64,000 nucleotides of DNA from Candidatus Siliceabacter maunaloa. GTDB lineage: Bacteria; Actinomycetota; Thermoleophilia; Solirubrobacterales; Solirubrobacteraceae. Below are positions 1,066 to 14,796 of the stretch, in pieces (within the stretch, counting starts at the first letter, position 1; every line of letters begins with the position of its first letter). Under the pieces are notes generated by a model. The model did no database searches. It was not told where the DNA came from and saw nothing but the letters and a program-made list of their open reading frames with translations. The stretch covers positions 1 through 64,000 of the forward strand of contig JANDLV010000012.1 of assembly GCA_024330185.1 (NCBI GenBank). The letters run 5' to 3'. The translations under genes and the position numbers were made by a program.

Positions 1066-1086
1066 GCGTCCTGCCGCGCTGCCTAA

Positions 1087-1130
1087 GCGTCCTGCCCTGC
1101 TGTTGCAGGAGAACAGTCAGGCAGGACGGT
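1087..1130. repeat. 44-bp palindromic repeat, copy A
   Basis: The outer arms GTCCTGCC and GGCAGGAC are perfect inverted repeats. Inside them CTGTT and AACAG pair after a 3-base mismatch, leaving a short loop. Copy B (2001-2044) matches at 36 of 44 positions in the same orientation, and the reverse complement of copy C (14753-14796) matches at 39 of 44, differing almost only in the loop. A half copy with the left arm lies just before it at 1067-1086. The repeat sits between two convergent genes and contains the stop codon of the minus-strand gene. Confidence 0.8.
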
Positions 1131-2022
1131 TCGGGGAAAGGAGCCGGCGGAGCTCGCGCAGCACGACCTGTGGTGACTCGAAGACGTCGCCGTAGGTGTA
1201 GCGGCGGAAGTCGTCCCCGCGGGCGTAGGCCTCGCGCTCGCGGCGGCGGTCCTGCTCCCAGGCGTGGCGGGAGCTGTGGTAGCGGTAGCTGTCCAGCTCG
1301 ACGGTGAGCCGCTGCTGGGCCCAGCGGCAGTCGACGCGGCGCCCACCGGCGGGCCGGTTGGTCGTCGGGAGCGCGAGGCCGCCCTCGCGCAGCAGCGCGA
1401 GGAAGCGACGCTCCAGTGCGCTGAGCGTCACGTGGACATCGCCGTGGACGATCCGGCGCAGCTTGGCCGCGCCAGGGCTGCGCGGCCGTCGGGCGAGCAC
1501 GGCCTCGATGTCGCGGGGCGTGGTGCGGTAGCGCACGCCGGCCTCGTGACAGGCGCGCGCGAGCTCCTCCTCGCCCAGAACGGCGGCGAGGTCCACCAGC
1601 GTGCGCGCGACCGTGGTGACCGGGATGCGCCGCCACGTCGTCGCGTCGCGGAGGTCGATGGCGTACCGCGCTCGCCTCGTGACGATGCCCTCGATGCGCC
1701 GCTGGGTCGGCGCCGTGACCTCGGGAGGTGGCGGCGCGCCCCTGACGAGAACCAGAAGGCGAGCCGCCGCCGCCCCGGTCAGCAACGCGCCCTCGCCGCA
1801 CGCACGCACTGCCGCGAGGTAGGTCGCCTCCATGCTCGGCGCCTGGTGTCCGAGCCGGTAGACCCCCGGGTACTCCACCAGGAGCGCACCGGTCCGCAGC
1901 CGCCACCGGATCTCCTCGGGCGTCACCCCCTGGGCCAACGCCTCCCTGCGCGTGACCACGCCGTGCGCGGTTCCCGCGATTTTCGCGAGCACGCGCTCAA
2001 CCGTCCTGTCCTGCTGTTCCAT
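1117..2022 (-). CDS. AbiEi-type N-terminal domain with DUF559-like endonuclease domain
   Basis: The protein has 301 residues. The N-terminal region (about 1-60) has the winged-helix pattern of AbiEi antitoxin domains, with GVVTRREALAQGVTPEEI followed by an R-W-R-L-R-T-G-A stretch and a Y-P-G-V-Y-R motif. The C-terminal part (about 200-290) resembles DUF559/Vsr-like nucleases, with an ERRFLALLREGGL helix and a VDCRW...LTVELDSYRYH core. Such fusions are common in actinobacteria and are often listed as type IV antitoxins, although no AbiEii toxin is adjacent here. Start and stop codons both lie inside copies of the 44-bp repeat. AGGTG 5 bases before the ATG could be a ribosome site, and the overlapping TAGGTG could be a -10. 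The substrate is unknown. Confidence 0.8.
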   Translation of the reverse strand: MEQQDRTVERVLAKIAGTAHGVVTRREALAQGVTPEEIRWRLRTGALLVEYPGVYRLGHQAPSMEATYLAAVRACGEGALLTGAAAARLLVLVRGAPPPPEVTAPTQRRIEGIVTRRARYAIDLRDATTWRRIPVTTVARTLVDLAAVLGEEELARACHEAGVRYRTTPRDIEAVLARRPRSPGAAKLRRIVHGDVHVTLSALERRFLALLREGGLALPTTNRPAGGRRVDCRWAQQRLTVELDSYRYHSSRHAWEQDRRREREAYARGDDFRRYTYGDVFESPQVVLRELRRLLSPNRPA

Positions 2023-2044
2023 GACAACACCTAGGCAGGACGGT
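2001..2044. repeat. 44-bp palindromic repeat, copy B
   Basis: This is the second copy of the element described at 1087-1130, in the same orientation and less perfectly palindromic in its inner arm. It contains the ATG, the first seven codons and the upstream region of the AbiEi-DUF559 gene read on the minus strand. The gene is therefore bracketed exactly by two direct copies. Confidence 0.75.
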
Positions 2045-2088
2045 GGGTGTTCTCGCCCCCCTCACCTGGATTCGCCGATGCTCGGGGC

Positions 2089-2328: not shown

Positions 2329-4089
2329 ATGCTCCTCGACACGCATGAGGTGGCCCGCAGCCATGAAGGTGCGCGTGCCGCCGGCTGGATCGCCGACCAC
2401 GCCTGGGTGGTGACGGCGTTGTTGTGCGCGGGATGGATCGCCGCTGGGTGGCGCACCCCGGACCTCGCCGCGCAGGCCTTCCGTGCGGACCTGTTCGAGC
2501 GCGAGGGCTTCGCGCTGTGGAACAACGCCTGGTACGGCGGCCACCACACCGTCGGCTACTCGCTGCTGTTCCCGCCGCTGGCCTGGATGACAGGGATCTG
2601 GATGCTCGGCGCGCTGTCAGCCGTCGCGGCCACCGCGCTGTTCCAGCGCCTCGCCGGCGCGCACCTGCCCCCGGCCGGCGCCCGTGCGGGGGCGCTGCTG
2701 GTCAGCCTGGCCTCGGTCGCCGACCTGGTCATCGGCCGCCTCACCTACGCCCTGGGCGCGGCGATCGCCCTCGCCGCCGTGCTCGCCCTCGACCGACGCC
2801 GGCCCGTTCTCGCCGCCGCCCTGGCCGTCGCGACCACCGCGGCGAGCCCCGTGGCGGGCCTGTTCGTCGCGATGGCGGGGGTGAGCATCGCGCTGGCGAG
2901 TGCGCGCCGCGGGCGGGCGCGAGACGAGGGCGTGAAGGGTCGCTGGCGCGACGAGGGCATGGAGGAGCGCCGACCAGGCGAGGGCGTGAAGGCCCGCCGG
3001 CGCGACGACGACGTGAAGGCCCGCCGGCGCGACGACGACGCGGAGGGCGGGCGCCGAGCCCCGCCGGCATGGCACGGCCTCGCCCTCGCGGCCGGCGCCT
3101 TCATCCCCGCCGTCGCGCTCGCCGTCGCGTTCCCCGCCGGTGGGCGGCAGCCGTTCTGGACGGTCGGCTTCCTCGTCACGCTCGCCGCCGCATTCACCGT
3201 GCTCGCGCTCCTTCCGCGTGGGTGGCGCACCGTGCGCACCGGCGCCACGGTCTACGCCGTCGCCGTCGTCGCCGCGCTGCTCGTGGACTCCCCCATGGGC
3301 AGCAACGTGAGCCGCCTCGGGGTCACCTTCGCCGCGGCGCTCCTGGCGTGCGCGCTGCCCTTCCTGGCCGGCCGCCGCACCGCGCTCGCCACGGCGGCGA
3401 TCCTCGCGTTCACCGTGTGGACGCTGTGGGGACCCGTGCGCGAGGTGGCCAAGGTGGTCGACGACCCCTCGACGGCCGCCGCCTACAGCGCTCCACTCAT
3501 CGACGCCGTGCGGGCACGAACGCAGGCACCGGTGCGCGTCGAGGTCCCGTTCACCAGAGCGCACTGGGTCGAGAACCACGTGGCCCAGCAGCTCCCGCTC
3601 GCCCGGGGCTGGATGACCCAGATCGACACGCGCCGCAACGCGCTCTTCCGCGACGGGACGCCGCTCACCGCGGACGAGTACCGCGCCTGGCTGCACGACA
3701 GCGGCGTGGCGTTCGTCGCGCTCCCCGACGTCCCGCTCGACCCAACCGGCCGTCGGGAGGCCGAGCTCGTCGAGAGCGGAGGCGCGCCCTACCTCGACGA
3801 GGTCTGGCGCGACGAGGACTGGCGCCTGTTCGCGGTCGACGGCAGCCCGGGCCTGGCCACGGGCGCGGCCACGGTCACCGCCCTGGAGCCGCAGGCCGTC
3901 ACCCTCGATGCCCAGCGCCCCGGCGAGACCCTCCTGCGCGTCCGCCCCAGCCCCTACTGGCGCGTGACCCGGGGAGAGGCCACGATCGCCCCCGCCGGCG
4001 ACTGGCTCAGCGTGCGCGCTGCGCGCCCCGGCACGATACGCCTCGAGGCGCGACTGATCCCCGCGGGTAAGCTCCGCGACCGTCCATGA
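2329..4089 (+). CDS. Polytopic membrane protein, GT-C-like, with repeat-containing loop
   Basis: The protein has 586 residues from the ATG at 2329; the frame is open further upstream but runs through the tandem repeat there. Multiple hydrophobic segments fill residues 20-200 and 245-390, followed by a soluble domain homologous to the end of the gene at 1-1065. Between the two membrane blocks, residues 198-242 form five copies of a charged nonapeptide of the type RDDDVKARR, probably a cytoplasmic loop. The stop overlaps the next start as ATGA, so it is translationally coupled to the lipid genes. This could be a membrane glycosyltransferase acting on lipid products, but no catalytic residues are recognised. 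Confidence 0.7.
2920..3054 (+). repeat. 27-bp in-frame tandem repeat (5 units)
   Basis: Five 27-base units encode nonapeptides rich in Arg, Asp, Glu and Lys inside the membrane protein gene. Units 3 to 5 are the most alike, and all lie between two hydrophobic blocks. Confidence 0.75.
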
Positions 4090-14752: not shown

Positions 14753-14796
14753 CCCGTCCTGCCTGACTGTTGTGGAGCAACAGCAGGGCAGGACGC
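14753..14796. repeat. 44-bp palindromic repeat, copy C
   Basis: The reverse complement matches copy A at 39 of 44 positions; almost all differences are in the loop. It stands alone between the divergent DUF1707 gene (start 14730) and the M48 peptidase gene (start 14832), inside the shared upstream region, with no AbiEi-DUF559 gene nearby. Confidence 0.8.

Follow-up and report, generated by a model that had tools for sequence, protein, structure and literature searches.

The nuclease gene and its two palindromes

The window analysed here, a 64,000-nucleotide stretch of contig JANDLV010000012.1 of Candidatus Siliceabacter maunaloa, carries on its reverse strand a 301 amino acid (aa) open reading frame (ORF) at positions 1117..2022 that is predicted to encode an AbiEi-fold DNA-binding part and a Vsr/I-Bth0305I-like nuclease domain, and this nuclease gene is bracketed by two copies of a long palindrome. 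The 5' copy, palindrome B (1999..2044, reverse strand), holds the ATG start codon (2020-2022) in its loop, and its 3' arm encodes the N-terminus of the protein. The 3' copy, palindrome A (1085..1130, reverse strand), has the same orientation as B and contains the stop codon (1117-1119). A first-pass annotation made from the letters of the window had placed the stop codon in A and the ATG in B and had counted 36 matches in 44 positions between two copies in the same orientation, all of which was borne out: A and B are direct repeats with an identity of 38/46 over 46 nt (corresponding to 36/44), and their 41-nt cores agree at 34 of 41 positions, far above the 10.6 ± 2.8 positions obtained with shuffled sequences (maximum 23 in 20,000 shuffles). 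Both copies form hairpins, and none of 200 dinucleotide shuffles was equally stable (z -4.8 and -5.9). As RNA, the hairpin with the start codon in its loop also folds strongly (z -3.9).

Relatives of the nuclease gene carry palindromes of their own

To describe the family, 105 related genes, drawn from about 35 genomes within the order, were compared, 20 of them in the same subfamily as the window gene (the window subfamily) and 85 outside it. The closest relatives, which are 50-68% identical and come from Thermoleophilaceae, Solirubrobacteraceae, and unclassified actinobacterial metagenome-assembled genomes, have at the equivalent place a palindrome of a different sequence, whose loop contains an ATG or GTG. 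At a score threshold of ≥12, a 5' palindrome is present in 16 of the 20 window-subfamily genes (80%, p 9e-13 versus neighbouring gene starts) and in 52 of the 85 other relatives (61%, p 1e-18 by the same comparison), whereas only 5 of 108 neighbouring gene starts (4.6%) and 3-9% of controls within genes reach this score. An in-frame start codon lies at the loop in all 16 of the window-subfamily genes with a 5' palindrome. Within this subfamily the loop reads ATG or GTG in the gene-start copies and CTG in many of the solo copies (those away from the gene) and 3' copies.

The sequence of the palindrome is specific to each gene, and the pairing of its arms is kept. Scored in a register fixed to the start codon, the two arms of one gene pair at 71% of positions, whereas arms taken from different genes pair at 43 ± 2% (maximum 51% in 2000 swaps), and up to four Watson-Crick pair types occur at a single palindrome position among the relatives. 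Given this excess of pairing and variety of pairs, the palindrome is maintained by compensatory change, even with one of its arms coding. Palindromes can differ entirely between genes at the same site: in the syntenic pair L130/L136, with flanks 77-82% identical, the proteins are 55% identical and the palindromes wholly different. In a second syntenic pair, L135/L131, the proteins are 62% identical and the inner stem is retained.

A 3' copy of the gene's own palindrome, called where the similarity exceeded the 99.9th percentile obtained for mismatched gene pairs, was found for 18 of the 105 genes against 0.1 expected, as a direct repeat in some genes and an inverted one in others. Beyond the order, in other actinomycetote lineages, the genes L333, L334, and L335 are bracketed by near-identical palindromes. 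The first-pass annotation had proposed looking for recurrent flanking in related genomes, and such flanking is indeed seen in other genera, families, and lineages, each time with different palindromes. It had also held that orthologues lacking flanking repeats at syntenic sites would speak against a mobile unit, which was not clearly the case: the 5' palindrome is usually kept, and a matching 3' copy is found only in the 18 genes above.

Solo copies of each palindrome are confined to the genome of its gene

The window palindrome is present in about 30 copies in the source genome, spread over many contigs, and the reversed-pattern control returned 0. These dispersed copies are intergenic, mostly near gene ends, and without a nuclease gene; most of them are closer to A than to B. 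One lies within the window itself (14755..14795, forward strand), intergenic and with no nuclease gene alongside, and had been overlooked in the first-pass annotation. Five paralogues of the nuclease gene were found in the genome, and there are no copies of the window palindrome within about 1.5 kb of any of them.

For the other genomes, 59 gene-start palindromes (46 nt each) were joined into a single concatenated query and searched against 38 genomes. This search was used because a general outer-stem pattern was matched by chance as well as by real copies (controls 0-5 per genome). With about 7 candidate stretches scored per genome, the copy numbers are lower bounds, and off-diagonal copies could be missed in genomes rich in copies of their own. 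All 134 of the 134 distinct places found fall in the genome of the cognate gene, and at least 24 of the 59 palindromes have two or more places. The clean controls were genomes with no palindrome of their own in the query, and zero places were found in these seven genomes, five without detected relatives and two with palindromes outside the query. Copies within one genome are about 82-98% identical, and the similarity among solo copies ends at the ends of the palindrome.

Solo copies are extragenic and lie apart from the nuclease gene. Sequence around 60 solo loci was retrieved, and at 59 of them no relative of the nuclease gene lies within about 3 kb. L294 retains a truncated gene. Among 83 solo sites, 4 are intragenic (versus 82% of random positions), 30 lie between convergent, 41 between tandem, and 6 between divergent genes, and the convergent and divergent placement differs from that of random intergenic positions (p 5e-4). 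Many solos stand shortly after stop codons, at a median of 63 bp, although these distances are approximate because the gene calls came from a simple codon-usage script. The same extragenic placement, at gene ends and between convergent genes, has been reported for repetitive extragenic palindromes (REPs; PMC3733652).

The position of many solos just past stop codons, together with the start codon in a strongly folding loop, raises the possibility that the palindromes are RNA hairpins, serving as terminators or translational brakes, and that the copies resemble each other through shared RNA function. No T run follows the palindrome, however, the palindromes also stand at gene starts and not at ends alone, and sequences that are gene-specific and alike within one genome only would be unexpected for terminators. 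We regard this reading as highly improbable, and reject an ordinary terminator as the sole explanation since the similarity is gene-specific, genome-private, and found at gene starts. The first-pass annotation had named an ordinary terminator behind many unrelated genes as a finding that would undo its proposal; the solos do follow unrelated genes, but they share a gene-specific sequence.

The placement of the solos also bears on the possibility that the protein acts as a transcription factor regulating its own gene, with the palindrome as operator, the solos as regulon, and the nuclease fold as a spectator or a damage sensor. AbiEi antitoxins autoregulate through promoter palindromes and bind similar sites elsewhere, e.g., oriT (PMC11062541), and the 5' palindrome of the nuclease gene overlaps its start codon. 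Against a regulon, solos are under-represented in divergent intergenic regions and over-represented in convergent ones, an operator has no need for a copy at the 3' end, and operators would be expected to persist from species to species, yet no palindrome was found in more than one genome. Such a regulon seems to us quite unlikely.

Some places in the source genome hold more than the palindrome. At four further places the gene's 5' leader, the palindrome, and the first codons are present and the intact gene is absent. Two of these places are 97% identical over 161 bp, at L001 (1396-1555) and L006 (1395-1554); these stretches contain the palindrome together with the degraded beginning of the gene and lie in otherwise unrelated surroundings. 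The four places, the truncated gene at L294, and the direct flanking repeats of several genes would suit a history in which the whole unit of gene and palindrome moves and recombination between the flanking copies then deletes the gene, leaving solos as scars. Most solos, however, are palindrome sequence only, with homology stopping at both ends, and there are about 30 of them per one gene. In addition, the copies of some genes are inverted, an arrangement in which recombination would flip the gene and not delete it. We consider scars an unlikely origin. Each of these three explanations (RNA hairpins, a regulon, and scars) leaves at least one main result unexplained, yet each may contribute.

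Two side observations concern the surroundings of the copies. In G026 the palindrome of L070 occurs in arrays with a spacing of about 130-470 bp, some adjoining the gene (C288, C284, C38, C35, and C237). Genes for tRNA (3' ends TTCGAATCCC...CTCCGC) lie beside L053, L088, L089, L092, and L093 and beside L001, L007, and L011 of the source genome, and the neighbourhood of tRNA genes may be a preferred landing place for both genes and solo palindromes.

Predicted domains and fold of the nuclease

The first-pass label of an AbiEi-DUF559 protein held in its first half. Pfam detects AbiEi_4 (PF13338) at the N-terminus of the window protein with 30.8 bits (cut-off 25), and PADLOC calls the protein AbiEi (E 2e-22); DUF559 is matched by relatives and not by the window protein itself. 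At the C-terminus the MTES_1575 nuclease domain scores 30.9 bits, under its cut-off of 38.2. No Y1_Tnp domain was found in the window protein by Pfam, no NCBIfam family covers it, and the PDB holds no sequence relative. Carriage of the window protein on plasmids or phages was considered and rejected, as no match was found in a plasmid or a phage collection.

A structure model was generated from 13 sequences, with a mean predicted local distance difference test (pLDDT) score of 83.7 and a predicted template modelling (pTM) score of 0.70. Residues 7-195 of the model match the AbiEi antitoxin 6y8q (Z 12.3 over 182 residues), with the winged helix and C-terminal fold of the AbiEi family. Residues 201-300 match 3r3p, the catalytic domain of homing endonuclease I-Bth0305I (Z 9.0 over 94 residues), and this part also matches Vsr (1cw0, Z 8.3) and 3hrl (Z 8.8), which gives the predicted model a Vsr-like nuclease fold. 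Alignments of 13-15 relatives show no variation at residues E204, D231, E242, and H249, which makes these candidate catalytic residues. A shared fold of this kind, predicted from a model, is by itself no proof of activity.

Comparison with known systems

REP-like palindromes are common in bacteria. To our knowledge, the only enzyme class so far tied to them is that of the Y1 transposases. One large class of REP-like palindromes has no known enzyme (PMC3733652).

The REPs that are paired with REP-associated tyrosine transposases (RAYT, or TnpA-REP) are the closest parallel. As there, the palindromes described here are short, extragenic, dispersed in one genome, and cognate to a dedicated gene that they flank, and they favour gene ends and convergent regions (PMC3733652, PMC8266576). 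In contrast, the enzyme here combines AbiEi and a Vsr-like nuclease where theirs is a Y1 HUH transposase, and the palindromes, at about 46 bp, exceed theirs in length, have nested stems, and contain a start codon. The palindromes examined have no common GTAG tag, nor do they have an unpaired GTAG or CGTC end tag, and the ends differ between families. Y1 transposases (RAYT/IS200; PF01797) are absent from the source genome and from 9 of the 13 genomes tested; mobilisation by a RAYT elsewhere in the source genome was rejected on this ground. As neither the enzyme class nor the tag agrees, we do not class the system as a member of REP/RAYT.

REPs with a CGTC tag, reported in other phyla, have no known dedicated transposase (PMC3733652). 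They are likewise dispersed REP-like palindromes, and the window palindrome begins with CGTC. Here, however, a cognate gene is present, and the CGTC is stem sequence that other families of the system do not share, for which reason membership in this class was rejected.

The predicted nuclease fold is shared with Vsr and with EDxHD homing endonucleases such as I-Bth0305I, and by analogy with the latter it is plausible that a dimer binds a long target here. The nuclease domain differs from both in being fused to an AbiEi part and in standing alone in bacterial chromosomes, and the gene is bracketed by whole palindromes, whereas a homing endonuclease gene splits one target site. With AbiE type IV toxin-antitoxin systems the protein shares the predicted AbiEi fold, which by analogy makes palindrome binding likely. 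The differences are the fused nuclease domain, the dispersal of the palindrome, and the lack of an AbiEii domain in either flanking gene, the only two neighbours scanned.

Proposed explanation

We consider it probable that gene and palindrome belong together as an enzyme-repeat pair, comparable to REP/RAYT in how it works but built on an unrelated enzyme. The AbiEi-like part, which is probably dimeric, would recognise its private palindrome as a duplex or an extruded hairpin, and the Vsr/EDxHD-like domain would nick or cut it. Repair or copying after the cut could then spread a non-autonomous element of about 46 bp consisting of nothing but the palindrome; now and then the gene would spread as well, with a palindrome on one side or on both. 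The 5' palindrome holds the start codon in its loop, and the protein or the hairpin probably also restrains the gene's own expression there. AbiEi proteins bind palindromes in promoters and at related sites elsewhere (PMC11062541), and the target on which I-Bth0305I forms a dimer is nearly 60 bp long (PMC3943268); by analogy, it is reasonable to picture an AbiEi/EDxHD dimer on the palindrome, which is about 46 bp long. The first-pass annotation had likewise proposed a nuclease-fold protein paired with its flanking palindrome in the manner of REP/RAYT; the pairing fits all findings and extends to the whole family, while binding and mobility are, as they were there, what we infer from it.

Several observations weigh against this explanation. 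The first-pass annotation had suggested looking for empty sites in related genomes. In G001, a genome of the same genus, the window palindrome does not occur, and it is absent at the three orthologous sites that could be aligned, but the intergenic regions there are shorter by more than the palindrome, so that loss or wider turnover could explain the difference as well as insertion could. The comparison is thus compatible with turnover and is no proof of insertion, and no base-precise empty site was found among the three sites. No insertion polymorphism between close strains was seen, and no target-site duplication was noticed. Furthermore, the 3' copy is recognisable in a minority of genes only and inverted in some of these, and in the other actinomycetote lineages a strong 5' palindrome is present in just 6 of 24 relatives.

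On balance we lean slightly toward extending the enzyme-repeat pair to a phylum-wide group of selfish elements, in which AbiEi/Vsr-like nucleases would each recognise a private, fast-changing palindrome that brackets its gene and would be mobilised as a REP-like non-autonomous repeat; this would be an independently evolved second route to such repeats, with co-evolution of protein and palindrome. The open-access literature yielded no account that pairs AbiEi or DUF559 genes with palindromic repeats, subscription papers and preprints lying outside the search, and the pair looks undescribed and selfish, with a gene that is widespread in actinobacteria and a nuclease family of up to about 10 members per genome. 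If the explanation is true, the system is a new class of mobile repeat that accounts for scattered palindromes in actinomycetote genomes, gives a function to many AbiEi/DUF559 genes currently labelled as antitoxins or unknown, and offers a natural series of nuclease/long-palindrome pairs for studies of specificity.

Other features around the nuclease gene

Immediately upstream of palindrome B lies a GGGGGCGAGAACACCC box (2045..2060, reverse strand), and a similar G-rich box is found in the leaders of orthologues in the window subfamily. The membrane genes on either side of the nuclease gene are paralogues, as the first-pass annotation had stated, with 37% identity over 289 aa (E 3e-32). Tandem repeats are found at the right-hand membrane gene, a 9-bp one (GGCTCGTTC) upstream of it (2088-2140) and a 27-bp one within it (2922-3056). 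A second dispersed repeat (CCGATGCTCG ... GCGGGTCAGGCGAACGGCAG), at about 2073-2170 in the window, also occurs near the solo palindromes L007, L014, L019, and L022.
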